From assembly GCA_947588355.1 (NCBI GenBank), contig CANPYI010000009.1, positions 1-41,387 of the forward strand: 41,387 bases of DNA, read 5' to 3'. Within the stretch, counting starts at the first letter, position 1; each line of letters opens with the position of its first letter. This document shows, piece after piece, positions 33,806-41,387 of this stretch. Source of the stretch: an uncultured Clostridia bacterium. Lineage in GTDB: Bacteria; Bacillota; Clostridia; Christensenellales; UBA1242. The notes below the pieces were generated by a model. The model was not told the DNA's origin. It saw only the letters and a program-made list of their open reading frames with translations, and made no database searches. A program made the position numbers and the translations under genes.

Positions 33806-34693
33806 TCAGAAAGTTTTTTCAATCATATTCAAAAATTGAGATTCTTTCTGCTTATCATAAATTTCAAATTCTTTTATATTCGAATTAAATTGTTCAACTG
33901 AATGATATTTAAAGGCATTCTTTTTCATATAAATTATCAACTTTTGACATTTTGTCGCCAAAACAAAATCAAGTACACCTGAACGGACTGTAATAAATGC
34001 TTTGGCTTTCTGACAAACAAAATAAAGTTCTTCAATGGGACAACGCAAGGCAATTGTGTTTTCAACAGGTTTTTGATCTCCAACAACATTGCTGTAAATC
34101 AAATATCCTTTTGAATTTAAAATTTCTGCAATTTTTTTGAAAAATGAACTGCATTCTTTTACATATGAGTCAGAAAAACTGTTTAAAACGACTATTCGAT
34201 TTTTGTTTTCTTCAAAGTTTTCAATGGACTTTATTTTTATATCAGTTTTTATATTCAGTAATTCACAATTTTTGTTTTTTAATTTAAAAATATCTTCTGT
34301 GTAAATATCAACAACATTTTTGTTTTTAAAAAAATATGGAGGTGGAGCAGCGTAAATTATTTTTCCATTTCCAAAATGGCTTCTTTTAAAAAAATAACCA
34401 ATTCCGACAGCATGAAAATAAGCATACTTTTCGCCGGAAGTTCCTTTATAGGTCACTATTCTGTCGACACAACTGTAATTTTCAACATACTTTTTATATC
34501 TTTCACTACAAAAGACAGCAATTTTTTTGCCTGTTTCAACTTTATATTGCTTGGCAAACATCATTCCATAAACCATGTCACCAAATTTTGGTGGAATCGC
34601 AATAAGAACTTCATCTTTCCGCCTAATTCTTATGATTTTCAGTAGAAAAAATGGTGCTTTAAAAAATGCTAAAACATTTTGAAATATTTTCAC
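33806..34693 (-). CDS. GT9/heptosyltransferase-like glycosyltransferase
   Basis: The 295-residue protein starts at a GTG with AGGAG 6 nt upstream. IAIPPKFGDMVYGMMFA (about 32-48) resembles the first motif of GT9 heptosyltransferases, and the C-terminal AKAFITVRSGVLDFVLAT resembles their donor-site region. A basic hydrophobic N-terminus (FFKAPFFLLKIIRIRRK) could sit at the membrane. The fold-level assignment is moderate and the sugar is unknown. It is the last gene of the four-gene sugar operon, 9 bp after the HAD gene. Its AT-richness exceeds that of neighbouring genes. Confidence 0.6.
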   Translation of the reverse strand: MKIFQNVLAFFKAPFFLLKIIRIRRKDEVLIAIPPKFGDMVYGMMFAKQYKVETGKKIAVFCSERYKKYVENYSCVDRIVTYKGTSGEKYAYFHAVGIGYFFKRSHFGNGKIIYAAPPPYFFKNKNVVDIYTEDIFKLKNKNCELLNIKTDIKIKSIENFEENKNRIVVLNSFSDSYVKECSSFFKKIAEILNSKGYLIYSNVVGDQKPVENTIALRCPIEELYFVCQKAKAFITVRSGVLDFVLATKCQKLIIYMKKNAFKYHSVEQFNSNIKEFEIYDKQKESQFLNMIEKTF

Positions 34694-34702
34694 AGCACTC
34701 TC

Positions 34703-35068
34703 CTAAATATCTGTTTCCAAAAATTTTTCGGTCATAAAAACGTCTCTCTTGGTGTTTATTGCAACAGAGGTTTTCAAACCTTTTGGTTTTTGGTCATTCA
34801 CCAAAATGCGTTCACCTATTGGCATCTCAAAAAGAATTTTTGTGAAAAAAACGCCATTTTTACGCAAAAAAGCAAGTGTTTTTCGTTTGTATTTTCTTTT
34901 CCTTGCTGTGATTATCAAAACTTTGTCACTTTTTGGCAGACTTTCAAAAAATTCTTTCACACCGCCAAGCAGAGTGTCGTGACCATCTATCAAATATCCG
35001 TTATGTTTCACCAAAGTGCCGTCCAAATCAAAGATCCAAAGTTTCGGCAATTTTGAAACTTCAACCAT
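34703..35068 (-). CDS. HAD-family sugar-phosphate phosphatase
   Basis: The ATG at 35068 follows GGAGG by 6 nt; the longer frame lies within the SIS gene. The 121-residue product has HAD motif I, IFDLDGTLV (D14, D16), motif II LIITARK, and a late acidic motif LVNDQKPKG. This is the compact HAD type found in capsule and sugar-nucleotide clusters. It overlaps the SIS gene by 8 bp. By analogy with GmhB or KdsC it would remove a phosphate in NDP-sugar synthesis; the exact substrate is unknown. Confidence 0.78.
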   Translation of the reverse strand: MVEVSKLPKLWIFDLDGTLVKHNGYLIDGHDTLLGGVKEFFESLPKSDKVLIITARKRKYKRKTLAFLRKNGVFFTKILFEMPIGERILVNDQKPKGLKTSVAINTKRDVFMTEKFLETDI

Positions 35069-35651
35069 TGAGTGCCTCCAACTTTTTGCCAATCCCACCA
35101 CCCGGATGATTTTGGCCAAAATCTTGCAAAGTTACGCCCATTCTTTTTGAAAGTTCAACTGCAAGTGCTTGCAAAACAATCAAAAACACTGTTGTGGAAT
35201 TATTTGGTGCAATGTTCCATAAATCACCTTCTTCAATAAGGTTCATGCAAAAGTTGTTTGTTGCCATTTGACACATTTTGCTGTTTTTATTGAAAGTAAA
35301 AATCCACAAGCAAGGCTCTTTGCAATCCAAGTGGTCAATAAGTTCTATACTTTCGCGAGTGTTGCCGCTTTTTGAAAGCACAATAACCACATCTCCCTTT
35401 TTGACAATACCCAAATCACCATGAACGGCGGTGTTTGAGTGTAAAAAACTTGCATTAAGTCCAAAAGAATTCATTGTGCCAACAAACTTTTCGCAAATTG
35501 GCACATTTTTTCCAAGACCACTGGCAATAATTTTTCCGCCTTTTTTTAATACATTTTCGCAATCACAAACAAGCTTTTCATAAACTTTTTCGTCTATTGA
35601 CTGTAAGGAATTCTCTATGATACGTAATGTATTTTCAAAATATTCGTTCAT
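35061..35651 (-). CDS. SIS-domain sugar phosphate isomerase (KdsD/GmhA-like)
   Basis: The 196-residue protein is one SIS domain: GGKIIASGLGKNVPICEKF, LHSNTAVHGDLGIVKKGDVV, VLSKSGNTRESIEL and the C-terminal HPGGGIGKKL. These blocks are close to arabinose-5-phosphate isomerase (KdsD), but it lacks the CBS domains of many KdsD proteins. GAGGAG is 7 nt before the ATG. It overlaps the upstream gene by 17 bp and the HAD gene by 8 bp. It probably converts a ketose phosphate to an aldose phosphate for the fused kinase-nucleotidyltransferase. Confidence 0.85.
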   Translation of the reverse strand: MNEYFENTLRIIENSLQSIDEKVYEKLVCDCENVLKKGGKIIASGLGKNVPICEKFVGTMNSFGLNASFLHSNTAVHGDLGIVKKGDVVIVLSKSGNTRESIELIDHLDCKEPCLWIFTFNKNSKMCQMATNNFCMNLIEEGDLWNIAPNNSTTVFLIVLQALAVELSKRMGVTLQDFGQNHPGGGIGKKLEALNG

Positions 35652-37191
35652 TGTTTATCTCCTCAAAAAAACTTTCCAATTCCAAGCACCCTTTGTAAAA
35701 TGCCCCGCAAATGCTGTCATAGTCATTCCATGCATACGTCGTCAAGGAATACCAAATTATTGAGTGATAAAGTTTCATTTGTGCCTTTGTCACTTTGCCT
35801 TCAAGCAGTTTGAAAAACACGGGCTCCAAATCCTCAAATCCAGAGGAAGTTATGTCAAAAGTCACATCATTTTCATTTATTTCAAGCGTAAATTTTCCCA
35901 AATTGAATTGGTCGTAGTTTCCGACAACTGAATAATAAAGTTTTGCCCAATCGTACGCCTCGTCGCCATACAATTCTGTTTGGCCAAAATATCCACGTGG
36001 GTCGATTAAGACCGGCTTTGTGCCATCAAAAAGGATATTAGAAAAAGTAGCGTCACCATGAATAACGCAGAAATTTTTTGGATAATACTTGAAAACGTGT
36101 GCAGAAATTTCTGGCAAACAGAAAAAAATATTTCTGCATTCTTTTCCATTAATGCAAATTTTTGGCTGGTCACTGAAAGGTATGAGTGTTTTTACAGTGT
36201 TCAGTCGTTTTACAGTTTTTGTAAGGTACGCATCAACAAAACTTTCGTAATCAGTGTCAACATTCTCAATCTCGTGAATCTTTTTCAAACAATCCACGAT
36301 ACTTGTCAATATTTTTTCTTTTTGCTGTTTTTCAAGACCGCCCATACTGTAAAGATGACAATCGCTATTTTCTTTTCCAACAACTTTTTCAATTGTCAAA
36401 GGCTCAAAAGAAAAAACGTGTGGCAGATTTTTACTGTCGCATTTATTTTGTATGTACTGATACCATCTTTTTTCTCTTATTGCAAGTTGTTCGCCTTGCT
36501 TGTCAACGGGCTCTTTTATCACCCTGTCCTCAAGAAAGGTTAACTTGTTAAATGGTCTGCAAATTGGTCTTTTCAGACCTTCCACAACTCCCAAAAGTCC
36601 AAATTCCTTGGTTTTTGGAAGAAAAATTTCCTTAAAATCTATGTTTTGTTCACTCAAATAACGGACAAATTCGCCGTCGCTAGGCAAATTCTTTAAGCAA
36701 CTCTTGTCCTTGAAAATGAAAAGTCCGGCAACTCCGTTTGTGTTTGAAGGCGATTCTTGAAACTTTTTCTTTTCATAACGCCATCTGCATGTAAATGTTT
36801 TCGAAAGGGCAACGAAGTTCCCCCCCCCCGCAATTTTAAGTTGATCGGATTCTTCAAGCACCAGATCTGACCAAATCAACATAAAACTTTTGTCAGATGG
36901 GATTTTGCTTAAGGCTTCTTTGATTCCCGACAGCGTTCCACAGTGACCACTTGCACAAACCAATTGATAATCAACTTTTGCAAAAGTGCCAAGATATTTT
37001 TCAAGCACATCAAATTTGTAGTCGCCAATAATAATAAACTTTTTGTCTGGAAACAACTTGAAAAGGTGAAAAAGCATTGGCAAATTGTCAATAGAAACCA
37101 AACATTTAGGTTTGTTTTTTGTAAGATGTTTCAATCTTGTTCCTTTACCGCCGGCCTGCACAACAATATATTCAAACATATTTCCTCTCAT
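35635..37191 (-). CDS. Bifunctional sugar nucleotidyltransferase-kinase, phase-variable candidate
   Basis: The N-terminal half (about 6-235) is a GT-A-type nucleotidyltransferase (VVQAGGKGTRLKHLT, NKPKCLVSID, WSDLVLEE). The C-terminal half (about 260-518) is an APH/choline-kinase-like domain with HGDATFSN and the metal-binding VLIDPRG. It would phosphorylate and activate a sugar or alcohol as an NDP derivative. Codons 121-124 contain ten consecutive G (36829-36820). The frame is intact here, while a one-base gain or loss gives early stops (about 20 and 44 codons downstream). AAGGA precedes the ATG at 37191; the ATG at 37179 is also possible. Confidence 0.88.
   Translation of the reverse strand: MRGNMFEYIVVQAGGKGTRLKHLTKNKPKCLVSIDNLPMLFHLFKLFPDKKFIIIGDYKFDVLEKYLGTFAKVDYQLVCASGHCGTLSGIKEALSKIPSDKSFMLIWSDLVLEESDQLKIAGGGNFVALSKTFTCRWRYEKKKFQESPSNTNGVAGLFIFKDKSCLKNLPSDGEFVRYLSEQNIDFKEIFLPKTKEFGLLGVVEGLKRPICRPFNKLTFLEDRVIKEPVDKQGEQLAIREKRWYQYIQNKCDSKNLPHVFSFEPLTIEKVVGKENSDCHLYSMGGLEKQQKEKILTSIVDCLKKIHEIENVDTDYESFVDAYLTKTVKRLNTVKTLIPFSDQPKICINGKECRNIFFCLPEISAHVFKYYPKNFCVIHGDATFSNILFDGTKPVLIDPRGYFGQTELYGDEAYDWAKLYYSVVGNYDQFNLGKFTLEINENDVTFDITSSGFEDLEPVFFKLLEGKVTKAQMKLYHSIIWYSLTTYAWNDYDSICGAFYKGCLELESFFEEINNERIF
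36820..36829 (-). repeat. G10 homopolymer in the coding strand
   Basis: Ten C on the plus strand read as ten G in the sense strand, encoding Gly-Gly-Gly after Ala. It stands out strongly in this AT-rich genome and is inside a surface-sugar gene, the classic setting for slipped-strand phase variation. Confidence 0.9.
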
Positions 37192-37231: not shown

Positions 37232-37350
37232 ACAAAAAAAGAATTAAATTGACAAAATATTGCTTGTTGCAAAAAAAATTTGAAAAAACACTTGTCAAAA
37301 CTTTTTTCATATGATAGAATAGTGTAGCAACTGAGCAATCAAACGATAAG

Positions 37351-37445
37351 GCGATACTTTTTGACGAAGTCAAAAATGAGCCAAAGCGCAGTAGTTCAAG
37401 GGCTCCCGAAAACGCGTGCCGTTTTTGGGAAAAAGGAGCAAACAA
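37351..37445 (+). repeat. Structured intergenic repeat, copy 1
   Basis: This 95-bp unit starts GCGATACTTTTTGACG and ends GGAGCAAACAA. It contains two hairpins: TTTTTGAC/GTCAAAAA (37358-37376) and a 10-bp stem CCCGAAAACG/CGTTTTTGGG with the loop CGTGC (37405-37429). It is noncoding as far as I can judge. The region 37192-37700 holds no credible gene, only these repeats, the sugar-operon promoter and a further hairpin. Confidence 0.8.
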
Positions 37446-37453
37446 GCGTCAAA

Positions 37454-37551
37454 GCGATACTTTTTGACACTTGTGGCAAAAATGAGCAAAAGCGCAGCAG
37501 TCCAAGGGCTCCCGAGAACGCGTGCCGTTTTTGGAAATAAGGAGCAAACAA
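37454..37551 (+). repeat. Structured intergenic repeat, copy 2
   Basis: This 98-bp unit is closely similar to copy 1. Where it differs, pairing is kept: the first stem becomes TTTTTGACAC/GTGGCAAAAA, longer with one mismatch, and the second CCGAGAACG/CGTTTTTGG with G-U pairs. Structure-preserving change suggests the folded RNA or DNA matters. Confidence 0.8.
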
Positions 37552-37581
37552 ACAAAACAATCTGAACAAAAACAAAAAAAG

Positions 37582-37621
37582 CGATTGCGCAAAACCGCCA
37601 ACAAAGTGCGGTTTTCAATCG
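37582..37621 (+). repeat. Long hairpin between repeat copies
   Basis: CGATTG (37582-37587) and AAAACCGC (37591-37598) pair with GCGGTTTT (37608-37615) and CAATCG (37616-37621). The CGC at 37588-37590 is bulged and the loop is 9 nt. No T-run follows, so it is not a simple terminator. Confidence 0.65.
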
Positions 37622-37631
37622 GCGCAAAGTT

Positions 37632-37682
37632 GAGCAATCAAACGAAAAGGCGATACTTTTTGACGAAGTCAAAAATGAGCAA
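37632..37682 (+). repeat. Partial third repeat copy running into the tRNA-Leu fragment
   Basis: GAGCAATCAAACGAAAAGGCG and the following first hairpin (TTTTTGAC/GTCAAAAA) repeat 37333-37380 almost exactly. The unit then diverges and leads into the tRNA-Leu half copy. Confidence 0.75.
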
Positions 37683-37700
37683 GAGTGAAGATTGCGAGAC

Positions 37701-37740
37701 GCCGGAGTGGCGGAATGGCAGACGCACGGGACTCAAAATC
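37701..37740 (+). pseudogene. 5'-half copy of tRNA-Leu
   Basis: These 40 nt match the first 40 nt of the intact tRNA-Leu 70 bp downstream with a single difference (C for T at position 3). The match stops in the anticodon stem, after ACTCAAAATC, and no 3' half follows. It is a remnant of recombination or a former attachment junction. Confidence 0.85.
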
Positions 37741-37770: not shown

Positions 37771-37856
37771 GCTGGAGTGGCGGAATGGCAGACGCACGGG
37801 ACTCAAAATCCCGCGAGGGCAACTTCATGAGGGTTCGACCCCCTCCTCCAGCACCA
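37771..37856 (+). tRNA. tRNA-Leu (anticodon CAA)
   Basis: This is a class II tRNA with the acceptor GCTGGAG/CTCCAGC, the anticodon stem CGGGA/TCCCG around CTCAAAA (anticodon CAA, reading UUG), a long variable arm (CGAGGGCAACTTCATG region) and the T-loop GTTCGAC. The discriminator A is at 37853, and CCA is encoded at 37854-37856. A terminator follows. It is a plausible target for the nearby tyrosine integrase. Confidence 0.95.
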
Positions 37857-38084: not shown

Positions 38085-38120
38085 TTAAAAAATGCCGAAG
38101 GCAACTAAATCCTTTCGGCA
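38085..38120 (-). terminator. Terminator of the PRTase-DprA-HAD cassette
   Basis: On the minus strand TGCCGAA (38120-38114) pairs with TTCGGCA (38099-38093), extended by CC/GG past a one-base bulge, then TTTTTTAATAC. Confidence 0.8.
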
Positions 38121-38123
38121 CTT

Positions 38124-38657
38124 TTATATCTTTATTAAATAGCCTTTTACGTCAAAAAGGCTATTTTTTATTTCATCTATAATCTTGTAATTAACTGAAG
38201 ATATGTTTTTGCTTTCATTTTCGTAAATAACCATAGTGTCATCTACAAAAGTTTCCTGGAATTTGATGACAGAATTTAAAAAGTGTGCTTTATCATCGTG
38301 AATAACCGCTTTAAAGTATTTTGTTAGATTGAAATATCCCAAAATATCTTGAACTCTTTTCTGGTTTGCTTTTGTCCATAAAAAAGTTTTGTCCGTGCCA
38401 TTTTGTTTTACTTTATCCAACAGTTGCGTGTTTAAAATTGTCCTATATGGCAGCCATTTCAAAGAGAAATAATCTTGTTTTGTCTTTATTATTTTTTGCA
38501 AATCTTCATATTTCACATTGAAAAGATTTTTTCTTGTTATGCGACCTCTGCAATCCAATCTAGGATACCCACATTTTTCAAGCGCAAAATTATAGGCGTC
38601 ATTGTTAAGAAATGTTGTGTAAACCAAAGTGTCATCTAAGTCTACAATCAAATTCAT
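38124..38657 (-). CDS. HAD-family hydrolase of the DprA-PRTase cassette
   Basis: The 177-residue protein has HAD motif I IVDLDDTLV (D6, D8) at the extreme N-terminus, a cap-like region, motif II FLWTKANQKR (Thr in place of the usual Ser/Thr), and the acidic motif FVDDTMVIYENE. It is expected to be a phosphatase acting on a small phosphorylated molecule. Its ATG overlaps the DprA-like stop by 4 bp (ATGA), so it is translationally coupled and the third gene of the cassette. The substrate is unknown; a nucleotide or sugar phosphate is inferred from the partners. Confidence 0.85.
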   Translation of the reverse strand: MNLIVDLDDTLVYTTFLNNDAYNFALEKCGYPRLDCRGRITRKNLFNVKYEDLQKIIKTKQDYFSLKWLPYRTILNTQLLDKVKQNGTDKTFLWTKANQKRVQDILGYFNLTKYFKAVIHDDKAHFLNSVIKFQETFVDDTMVIYENESKNISSVNYKIIDEIKNSLFDVKGYLIKI

Positions 38658-39493
38658 CTTAAAACCAAATCCTTTATTGATTTTTCAGTCAATATTGTGA
38701 CATTTTCTTTCAACAAATCTTGATTTAGACCGAAACCTGCTTTGCCAAAATCTTTTTGTTTGTCGAACATCATAAACCTTTGCTTGCCGTAAATTTTGGC
38801 CTTGTGCATGGCATGACGAGAGCCGCTGTCGCCCTCGCCATAGCGGAAACTTGCAATCAAAACAACCGCTTTTGAAAACATGGCTTGCAGGCGGTCACGT
38901 TCAACAAAACGCGAAATCCCATCGCCACGACTTTTCGGCTCGGTCACATATTCACTCACAAGAAGTCCGCCGTTTTCAACGATTTTTTGCGACAATTCCA
39001 AATTCCTAGGCGGATAAATTTTGTACAGTGTCGAAGGCAAAAATGCGACTGTTTTACGAGAGTTTTTCACACATTCAGTATGTGCTATGGTGTCGCAGCC
39101 GTCCGCCAAACCGCTGACAACACAAAATCCGCTTTCAATAATTTTTGAAACAATCTTTTTCTCGCGCTTTGCAATGCCTTCATTTGGCTCTTTCACGCCA
39201 ATCACTGCAATGTTGTTGTCAATTTCATTCAAAAGTGATAAATCTCCACGATAAGCAAACAAAAATGGCCTGTCTTTTCCCGGCACCGACTCTGGAATCT
39301 TTGGAAAATTCTCGTCAAAGCAGCACACAATGTCAAAATCGGCGGTTTTAAGTTTTTGTTCGTATTTTTCCGTGTCAAAGTCTAACGCATTTATCTTTTC
39401 TTCAGTCGAGAAATTCTTCCAAAACAAACTTCTGGAAGTGATAAGCCCTTCGCATATGGCGCTATAAATTTTTAATGCAATTTGTGAAAACAT
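38654..39493 (-). CDS. DprA/Smf-like SLOG-domain protein
   Basis: I chose the ATG at 39493 (AAGGA 5 nt upstream, 1 bp after the PRTase stop); the frame is open to 39550. The 279-residue product has the DprA Rossmann core: IAVIGVKEPNEG, VVSGLADGCDTIAH, FLPSTLYKIYPPRN and VSEYV. Two canonical motifs are altered: FPxRNR is FVERDRLQAMFS, and the SGS block is EGDSGSRHAMHKA. The C-terminal winged helix of housekeeping DprA is absent. It therefore looks like a specialised nucleotide- or DNA-sensing paralogue, not the transformation protein. Confidence 0.85.
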   Translation of the reverse strand: MFSQIALKIYSAICEGLITSRSLFWKNFSTEEKINALDFDTEKYEQKLKTADFDIVCCFDENFPKIPESVPGKDRPFLFAYRGDLSLLNEIDNNIAVIGVKEPNEGIAKREKKIVSKIIESGFCVVSGLADGCDTIAHTECVKNSRKTVAFLPSTLYKIYPPRNLELSQKIVENGGLLVSEYVTEPKSRGDGISRFVERDRLQAMFSKAVVLIASFRYGEGDSGSRHAMHKAKIYGKQRFMMFDKQKDFGKAGFGLNQDLLKENVTILTEKSIKDLVLR

Positions 39494-39494
39494 C

Positions 39495-40100
39495 TCAATC
39501 CTTAGTCTTTGCAACTGTGTATAGTATAACATCTTTTGCACCAAAATCAAACAGAGTTTGGATACAATCTTCGGCTACATTTACATCTTTTGTATAAATA
39601 TCGTCCACCAAGATAACATTTTTGCCTTCAACAAAATTTTTATCTATAACACAAGTATCCTTTGTGATGCCTTTATATGGATCATCTCCAAAATTATTCT
39701 CAAGACGCCAATTGTGCGTGGTTTTGGTATTTCTTACTCTTTTTATTGCATTTGTACCGTTTTTTAAGCCAATATTATCTACACTGCTTGATACTGCTTT
39801 TCTAAACATGAGTTGACTTTGTAAATAATTAGAGTCCGGTTTTGCTCTAGGAATGGTGCAAACAGTCATATTTGACATCTCTTTGTCTTTTGCAAGAGTT
39901 TTCAAATCGTTTGTCAATTTGTCGGCAGCAACAACAAAATCTTCTACCAAATCGGTCTCGCTTTTTTGTCTGCTCATATTCTTCAAATGATTTATGAAGT
40001 CTGGATTGCCCGGTTTTTGATATCCTATATAGTCGCAATTGTAATAACCTTTTACATCTCTGTCTAAATATTTGTTTTGTTTAATAGTGTAAGTTTTCAT
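39495..40100 (-). CDS. Phosphoribosyltransferase-fold protein
   Basis: The ATG at 40100 follows AAGGAG by 5 nt; the frame is open 48 bp earlier into the leader hairpin. The 201-residue product carries the type I PRTase PRPP-loop region NVILVDDIYTKDVNVAEDC near the C-terminus and VCTIPRAKPDSN at mid-protein. In the loop, the usual Thr-Gly after the acidic pair is replaced (TKDVN), so PRPP chemistry may be altered. It is the first gene of the cassette, with its own promoter and a long leader hairpin. The product it makes or consumes is unknown. Confidence 0.78.
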   Translation of the reverse strand: MKTYTIKQNKYLDRDVKGYYNCDYIGYQKPGNPDFINHLKNMSRQKSETDLVEDFVVAADKLTNDLKTLAKDKEMSNMTVCTIPRAKPDSNYLQSQLMFRKAVSSSVDNIGLKNGTNAIKRVRNTKTTHNWRLENNFGDDPYKGITKDTCVIDKNFVEGKNVILVDDIYTKDVNVAEDCIQTLFDFGAKDVILYTVAKTKD

Positions 40101-40112
40101 TTTATCTCCTTT

Positions 40113-40151
40113 CAATTGAAAAGAAGCCGATAATACTCGACTTCTCAACTG
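40113..40151 (-). promoter_or_regulatory. Long hairpin in the cassette leader
   Basis: In the minus-strand transcript CAGTTGA-GAAGTCGA (40151-40137) can pair with TCGGCTTC (40130-40123) and TCAATTG (40119-40113), with a 3-nt bulge and a 6-nt loop. The stem of about 15 bp includes two G-U pairs and ends 3 nt before the SD. It may control translation. Confidence 0.6.
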
Positions 40152-40156
40152 AAAGA

Positions 40157-40185
40157 ATTATAAATAATAAAATTTTTATATTCAA
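40157..40185 (-). promoter_or_regulatory. Promoter of the PRTase-DprA-HAD cassette
   Basis: The minus strand has TTGAAT (40185-40180), a 17-bp spacer and TATAAT (40162-40157). +1 should fall near 40150, at the foot of the leader hairpin. Confidence 0.75.
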
Positions 40186-40202: not shown

Positions 40203-41387
40203 TTACATCTCAAAATCTTTTTTCTTTTTCAAATTCCTTTTTTCTTCGAGCATACGTTCAAGTTCGGCAATTTCTTTGTCTATTTCTTGTTGGTCAGCCT
40301 TTGAAATTTCTTGTTCTTCAAAAGATAGTGCGTTTGAAATGGTGTTTGCGCTTGAAAGTTTGCTTGAATAGTCTAGGTGTGCGTAGGTGTCCGCAGTTGT
40401 ATTGAAAGTGCTATGCCCAAGCCACTCTTGAATTTGTTTCATTTGCACGCCGTTTGCAAGCATTAGGCTTGCACATGAATGTCGCAAATCGTGAAAGCGA
40501 ATTTCTTTCAGTCCATGTTTTCTTTGGATTAACTTAAAGTGGTGGGATAGAAATTCAGGCTTAATCAACTCTCCAAGAGAATTTACACAAACATAGTCCA
40601 AATAATTGTTGTTATAACTGTTTCCGTAAAGTATTCGATTTTGTTCTTGTTTGGATTTTTCATCATGCAGCATTTGTTCAATTTGTGGTATTAAAGGCAA
40701 AGTTCGATTGCTTGATTTGTTCTTCATTTTGTTTTTGGCAATAAGCTTGCCCTTGATTGGCACAACTTTGTGATTGATTTTGATTATTTTATTTTCAAAG
40801 TCTATTGCACTCCATTTCAGTCCAACAACTTCACTTCGGCGCAATCCATAATAGGCGGTGATATAAATAATCAACTCCAACGGGTCGCCTTTGACAACTT
40901 CAAAAAGTTTTTGCAACTCATCTTTGTTATAAAAATTCGTTTCATATTTTACTTTTTTAGGTCGGTCAACAAGATCGGCAACATTCTTGTCAACAAGATT
41001 AAGCCTGACAGCCTCTTTCAAAGCTTCTCGAATTATCACATGATAGTGAACAGCGGTGTTTCCGCTTTTGCCTTCGCTATACAGTAAGTTGTAAAAACTT
41101 TGCAAATCATAAGGTTTTAGGTCTTGCAAATAAATTTTCTTCTTATCAAAAAACTCCGACAGCCTTTTTATGCTAAACTGATATCCTTGATAGGTGTCTT
41201 CCTCAACATCATTTTTTCTCGTTAAAAGCCATTGTTTAAGATAGTCGCCAAATAGCATGTCATTTGTTCTGTTGGTCTTAACTTCAAGCAAATTTCCGCT
41301 ATTATATTCCTGCAAAATTTCATTCAACTTGGCTTCTGCTTTTCGTTTGTTGCCTTTCTCTTCCAAGCCTGTTGAAATCCATTTGCG
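40203..41387 (-). CDS. Tyrosine recombinase/integrase, 5' end beyond the window
   Basis: The reading frame is open to the window edge, so the N-terminus is missing. The visible start RKWISTGLEEKGNKRKAEAK is the end of the AP2-like arm-binding domain. A core-binding SAM-like domain follows (about 40-120), then the catalytic domain with GLRRSEVVGLKW (Arg), FHDLRHSCASLML (HxxR), WLGHSTFNTTADTYAH (His and Tyr nucleophile) and a charged coiled-coil tail. It belongs to the phage/ICE family. The gene points toward tRNA-Leu, and the cassette lies between it and the tRNA. Confidence 0.93.
   Translation of the reverse strand, partial: RKWISTGLEEKGNKRKAEAKLNEILQEYNSGNLLEVKTNRTNDMLFGDYLKQWLLTRKNDVEEDTYQGYQFSIKRLSEFFDKKKIYLQDLKPYDLQSFYNLLYSEGKSGNTAVHYHVIIREALKEAVRLNLVDKNVADLVDRPKKVKYETNFYNKDELQKLFEVVKGDPLELIIYITAYYGLRRSEVVGLKWSAIDFENKIIKINHKVVPIKGKLIAKNKMKNKSSNRTLPLIPQIEQMLHDEKSKQEQNRILYGNSYNNNYLDYVCVNSLGELIKPEFLSHHFKLIQRKHGLKEIRFHDLRHSCASLMLANGVQMKQIQEWLGHSTFNTTADTYAHLDYSSKLSSANTISNALSFEEQEISKADQQEIDKEIAELERMLEEKRNLKKKKDFEM

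Follow-up and report, generated by a model that had tools for sequence, protein, structure and literature searches.

A three-gene cassette of phosphoribosyltransferase, DprA-like protein and HAD hydrolase in an uncultured Clostridia bacterium: a probable relative of DprA-linked toxin-antitoxin systems

The small genome (0.93 Mb, 15 contigs) of an uncultured Clostridia bacterium (Christensenellales UBA1242; GCA_947588355.1) carries a cassette of three minus-strand genes at positions 40100-38124 of a 41,387-nt stretch of contig CANPYI010000009.1, the whole of which is referred to here as the window. The genes encode, in order, a phosphoribosyltransferase (PRTase), a DprA-like protein and a HAD hydrolase. 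By analogy with characterized systems, the cassette is probably a relative, with three genes, of the toxin-antitoxin systems that pair DprA with a PRTase (the ShosTA and RqlHI/PsyrTA kind); in it, the PRTase would be the toxin, the DprA-like protein the antitoxin and the HAD protein a helper of the toxin. The DprA-PRTase pair is thus of a known kind; the new part is the HAD that travels with it. The three genes are:

39495..40100, minus strand: PRTase of ComF/ShosT-like fold, 201 aa, likely toxin
38654..39493, minus strand: DprA-like Rossmann protein without a winged helix, 279 aa, likely antitoxin or sensor
38124..38657, minus strand: HAD-IA hydrolase with conserved catalytic residues, 177 aa, the third component

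A 1-bp gap separates the PRTase gene from the DprA-like gene, whose stop codon overlaps the HAD start in an ATGA. An earlier note, made from the sequence alone, had described three coupled genes between a tyrosine integrase and a tRNA-Leu, a DprA-like protein lacking the winged helix and a HAD with intact motifs, and these observations hold. Purifying selection acts on all three genes, with ratios of nonsynonymous to synonymous substitution (dN/dS, NG86) of 0.04-0.18: 0.04-0.11 for the PRTase, 0.11-0.15 for the DprA-like protein and 0.15-0.18 for the HAD, although dS relative to the related locus L003 is near saturation at 1.8-3.2. The first 140 codons of the PRTase show no amino-acid changes relative to another related locus, L004.

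The three genes recur as a set. A PRTase profile gave strong matches (E 5.7e-48 or better) in seven of the 396 genomes of the order, including the window genome and three that are rows of the profile itself (G385 = L010, G420 = L003 and G300 = L012), and the three genes lie side by side in all seven. A further 94 genomes of the order match at E 9e-8 to 1e-3 with ComF-like lengths and were set aside. Among 395 Bacteroidota genomes, three match at E 1e-15 or better (the seed G072 included), and all three have complete sets with the HAD gene upstream. The reverse search with a HAD profile at E 1e-9 found matches in five of 277 genomes, three of which (G254, G193 and G260) are absent from the profile, and every match lies within 1 kb of the pair; chance acquisition of a generic HAD was therefore rejected. 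A contig scan gave 15 loci, some of them bearing two labels (L003 = L038, L004 = L018, L010 = L037, L012 = L040, L014 = L067 and L015 = L043). One, L016, is cut inside the PRTase, and the HAD gene adjoins the pair in 13 of the other 14, L005 being the exception. Within the genus the distribution is patchy, with the DprA-like form in 5 of 37 genomes. The earlier note would have dropped its idea of a conflict system if the genes rarely occurred together; rare co-occurrence was not what the searches showed. The set is recurrent and patchy and has the plan of a conflict system, and that idea is likely.

The loci at which the set has decayed are informative about the roles of its parts. At three loci the DprA-like gene persists although no full PRTase is left, and all three have lost the HAD or its core: in L019, the PRTase is reduced to a 22-residue stub and the HAD is absent, L020 has neither gene, and in L021, the 176 bases ahead of the DprA-like gene hold no PRTase and the HAD lacks its core. 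In each case, the DprA-like frame is whole. That the DprA-like gene outlasts the other two fits an antitoxin, a toxin and a toxin helper.

In a tree of 43 DprA-like proteins (L019, L020, L041, L042, L068 and L069 left out), the window protein falls on a long branch in a clade of 17 members from Clostridia, Bacteroidota and Synechocystis with support of 100/100. Two gene orders occur within this clade, PRT-DprA-HAD and HAD-PRT-DprA, the latter also on the Synechocystis plasmid. Five housekeeping DprAs form a separate clade (100/99); housekeeping DprA is also longer, at 356-397 aa in five proteins measured. The window clade is read as a deep clade of its own; the deeper order has support of only 72/79, and several long branches were flagged. 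Two genomes of the genus (G006:C2:3296-3793 and G028:C8:16990-17487) have another DprA-like frame, 324 aa long, which is weakly similar (33%) to the window protein and, by score, outside its clade.

The PRTase has conserved active-site residues, and in a fold comparison with VIA-align its model aligns full-length to residues 168-364 of ShosT and to ComF; at the sequence level, its profile found no match among solved structures. Its nearest named relatives are metagenome-assembled genomes of Clostridia, several from animal gut according to their titles, and one viral contig, L070, also matches. The HAD protein has the core, helical cap and DxDxT motif of subfamily IA of the HAD superfamily. Its fold matches HAD-IA phosphatases such as phosphoglycolate phosphatase, beta-phosphoglucomutase and TM_1254, the last of which is also matched by the sequence profile (2.9e-10), but identity is low, at most 20% among the 50 fold matches listed.

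Systems that pair a DprA-like protein with a PRTase have been described. A DprA and a PRTase of a P2-like phage are reported to protect against T7 and lambda (PMC9122126), and a review describes ShosT as a PRTase plus pyrophosphatase that alters the nucleotide pool and ShosA as a DNA-binding protein that counters it (PMC12593503). ShosTA is given as two genes (PMC11878078). In RqlHI/PsyrTA, the PRTase domain of RqlH is reported to be required for genotoxicity, though not sufficient alone, and the DprA-like partner RqlI counters and likely binds it (PMC4670107). The earlier note's description of the system as undescribed thus went too far, since both ShosTA and RqlHI are reported to pair a PRTase toxin with a DprA-like antitoxin; the HAD alone goes beyond what was found in print. 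None of the literature titles and abstract openings listed concerned a HAD partner of DprA-PRTase systems. A HAD phosphatase is reported in another defense system, DS-9 (PMC13092281). A link to the Ter system, which has PRTases and a HAD, was also considered, and the literature search returned nothing on it.

Solved structures exist for ShosTA of Escherichia coli P2-like phages (PDB 8zvb-8zvd, 9w2p, 9w2q and 9vzo), with which the cassette shares the ShosT fold of the PRTase and an adjacent DprA-like protein without a winged helix. However, the HAD of the window is encoded on its own and is a distinct enzyme of a different HAD type, whereas in two-gene ShosTA a HAD-like region, lacking the catalytic aspartates in our alignment, is fused ahead of the PRTase in ShosT. 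The DprA-like proteins also belong to different tree clades. In RqlHI/PsyrTA, by contrast, a RecQ-like helicase carries the PRTase as its C-terminus, and the cassette has no helicase. The Pseudomonas phage PfAC02a and a Psychrobacter plasmid carry the same three activities in two genes, a HAD-PRTase fusion and a DprA, but their HAD is of another type, matching the window HAD only locally in a profile comparison, and zinc ribbons are present at the C-terminus; the GenBank record of PfAC02a names a HAD/PRTase ShosT. The ComFC and DprA of competence differ in being housekeeping genes with a longer DprA of a different clade.

A survey of more distant pairs gives a broader view of the HAD. A tblastn search with the DprA-like protein matched 26 plasmid and 22 phage records, of which 17 and 6 were examined, and the state of the HAD was counted over 22 examined records outside the window clade, using Pfam for ten proteins and otherwise annotation, alignment and inspection by eye. 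A separate HAD with DxD is present in three (Segatella, Sinorhizobium and Rhizobium) and a HAD-PRTase fusion in three (PfAC02a, Psychrobacter and Priestia), while one (Deinococcus) has the HAD fused to the DprA-like protein with no PRTase seen nearby. Five have a HAD-like region without the aspartates (Escherichia phage 10W, which is the P2-type ShosT, Secundilactobacillus, Tunicatimonas, S. saprophyticus and Bermanella, where the region is a separate gene). No HAD was seen in six (Hymenobacter, Chryseobacterium, Halopiger, Bosnia, Mana and SopEPhi), three have no PRTase pair (Persicobacter, P. syringae and Roseivivax), and phiOH2 was left unassigned. The degenerate and intact HAD sets match each other over 117 columns (95%, E 2e-8), and the P2-type region reads as a dead HAD from its alignment and a Pfam hit of 2.9e-4. 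With the intact set, the window HAD shares only a local match (75%, 40 columns), and it matches neither the degenerate set nor its P2-type region (0.4%), so the HAD seems to have come to DprA-PRTase systems in at least two forms.

The fusion on Deinococcus plasmid pDrdI (L072 3311-4729) lies behind a helicase and a coiled-coil protein and is possibly a further variant. On the archaeal Halopiger plasmid (L145 769-3247), an integrase, a ComF-like PRTase and a DprA-like gene stand in a row without an annotated HAD, and the pairs of Gordonia phage Bosnia (L151) and Burkholderia phage Mana (L150) lie near integrases of their own.

Going by what is known of RqlH and ShosT, the PRTase would act as a toxin by disturbing the purine/PRPP (phosphoribosyl pyrophosphate) pool or DNA-linked bases. 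The DprA-like protein would bind and restrain it, and may sense unusual single-stranded or recombining DNA at invasion. The HAD presumably works with the toxin, either by dephosphorylating the PRTase product or by hydrolyzing pyrophosphate to make the reaction one-way. A bolder reading, somewhat less likely than not, is that DprA-PRTase conflict systems regularly include a HAD phosphohydrolase as their third component; it would have been recruited more than once, would be a free, active enzyme in the cassette and would persist in the studied ShosT as a dead domain. Together with the PRTase, it would yield a processed nucleotide-like product or drain PRPP in one direction, chemistry as yet undescribed in systems of this kind.

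The HAD could also be an antidote that destroys a toxic PRTase product and so adds a second line of immunity to that of the DprA-like protein. The overlap of its start with the DprA-like stop and the HAD-DprA-like fusion of Deinococcus would suit such a role. However, the HAD is lost or stripped of its core at all three loci that have lost the PRTase and kept the DprA-like gene, L005 has an open PRTase and no HAD, and in the other lineages examined the HAD is fused to the PRTase in three regions and to a DprA-like protein in one; this role is therefore rather unlikely. The earlier note had favored a signaling scheme, in which a phosphoribosyl compound, formed and removed by the two enzymes, is sensed by the DprA-like protein with its SLOG fold. 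Conserved active-site residues in both the PRTase and the HAD are compatible with this, as is the reported activation of SLOG-containing Thoeris effectors by ADP-ribose isomers. Yet the cassette shows no separate effector gene, and in the known relatives, as reported (PMC4670107, PMC12593503), toxicity comes from the PRTase and is countered by the DprA-like protein, which supports toxin and antitoxin roles better than metabolite sensing and leaves the scheme quite improbable. Finally, we give little credence to a module for DNA uptake or recombination, akin to ComFC-DprA and with no role in defense: the genome holds another DprA and a ComF-like frame elsewhere, the DprA-like form is patchy in the genus, and the window protein stands in a clade separate from the housekeeping DprAs.

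Several observations weigh against the toxin-antitoxin reading. By fold, the PRTase is nearer to the competence protein ComF than to ShosT, and P2 ShosA groups with Bermanella (100/99) and is not joined to the window clade. A tblastn search of phage records with the PRTase and HAD at E 1e-3 and 1e-2 gave no match. L005 has the PRTase and DprA-like genes without a HAD, which is therefore not always needed. L004 and L015 each have a broken PRTase frame beside an intact DprA-like gene, and L015 has an additional stop in HAD motif I; as L015 is the place found in G260, one of the seven strong-match genomes and one of the five HAD-profile genomes are not intact. These defects may be assembly errors. 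The PADLOC ShosT and ShosA models match the window proteins at 1.6e-6 and 5.5e-49, but a ComF of the same family scores 1.1e-11 and the genome's own DprA 4.2e-72, so these matches prove nothing here and were rejected as proof of ShosTA. The ShosT model also matches in 153 of 398 and 226 of 395 genomes, mostly frames of ComF size among the matches listed, and these were not counted as systems. A general linkage to integrases was likewise rejected, as an integrase was seen directly upstream of the cassette only in the window, L004 and L003.

The chemistry of ShosTA-type systems is only partly known. Here the HAD is a gene of its own, is conserved and, in the 277 genomes sampled, occurs only with the pair, so each activity can be removed alone, and the PRTase product and the role of the HAD become directly testable. 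The results also suggest that defining ShosTA by two genes overlooks a component and that the PADLOC ShosT and ShosA models fail to separate these systems from ComF and DprA.

The surroundings of the cassette include the following:

40203..41387, minus strand: tyrosine integrase upstream of the cassette, truncated by the contig end
40157..40185, minus strand: promoter-like site 5' of the operon, weak evidence taken alone
40107..40157, minus strand: strong leader hairpin extending to the PRTase ribosome-binding site (-27.8 kcal/mol, z -5.3)
38088..38123, minus strand: terminator-like hairpin and T run 3' of the cassette
37771..37856, plus strand: tRNA-Leu(CAA) downstream of the cassette, probable integration anchor
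37701..37740, plus strand: tRNA-Leu 5'-half copy, a possible integration scar or tandem duplication

An integrative element likely brought the cassette in at the tRNA-Leu. From the tRNA-Leu through the cassette and into the integrase, the window is 92.8% identical to L004 across 2864 bases. The integrase adjacency pointed out in the earlier note holds for three loci but not generally; among 52 hand-picked neighbor proteins from 12 loci, only one matched PF00589. Some neighbors match defense models (methyltransferase, AbiLi-like) among the first 25 of 79 families listed, too few for a defense island. In the genus, recJ adjoins the tRNA-Leu in 10 of 30 tRNA-Leu loci (L156, which is the place of L004, and nine others), and the side opposite recJ is variable among the recJ-adjacent loci read. 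An extra 5'-half copy lies beside the tRNA-Leu in only 2 of the 30 loci, the window and L155, which weakens the case that such copies prove integration. Partial matches to the 3' half were seen in G003 C2, twice near the full gene, and in G023 C4, 6.4 kb away; these weaker matches are possibly integration scars or other tRNA-Leu genes.

The leader hairpin is similar in L004, of different sequence in L003 and strong also in L014; no strong hairpin was found in L005, L007, L010 or L012 (whose duplicate L040 was folded too), and an Rfam scan found only two tRNAs. A conserved leader RNA was therefore rejected.

Between recJ and the tRNA-Leu, at 33806-37191, is a small sugar-modification island whose open reading frames (ORFs) were named by eye as nucleotidyltransferase-like, SIS isomerase-like and HAD-like. 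In L004, recJ directly follows the tRNA-Leu with no such island, and that of the window may be the product of a second insertion at this site. A run of ten Cs at 36820-36829, inside a 518-aa minus-strand ORF (35635-37191; sugar nucleotidyltransferase-like by eye), is a possible slippage or phase-variation site, and degenerate repeats of about 30 bases are visible by eye at 37340-37690, before the tRNA-Leu.
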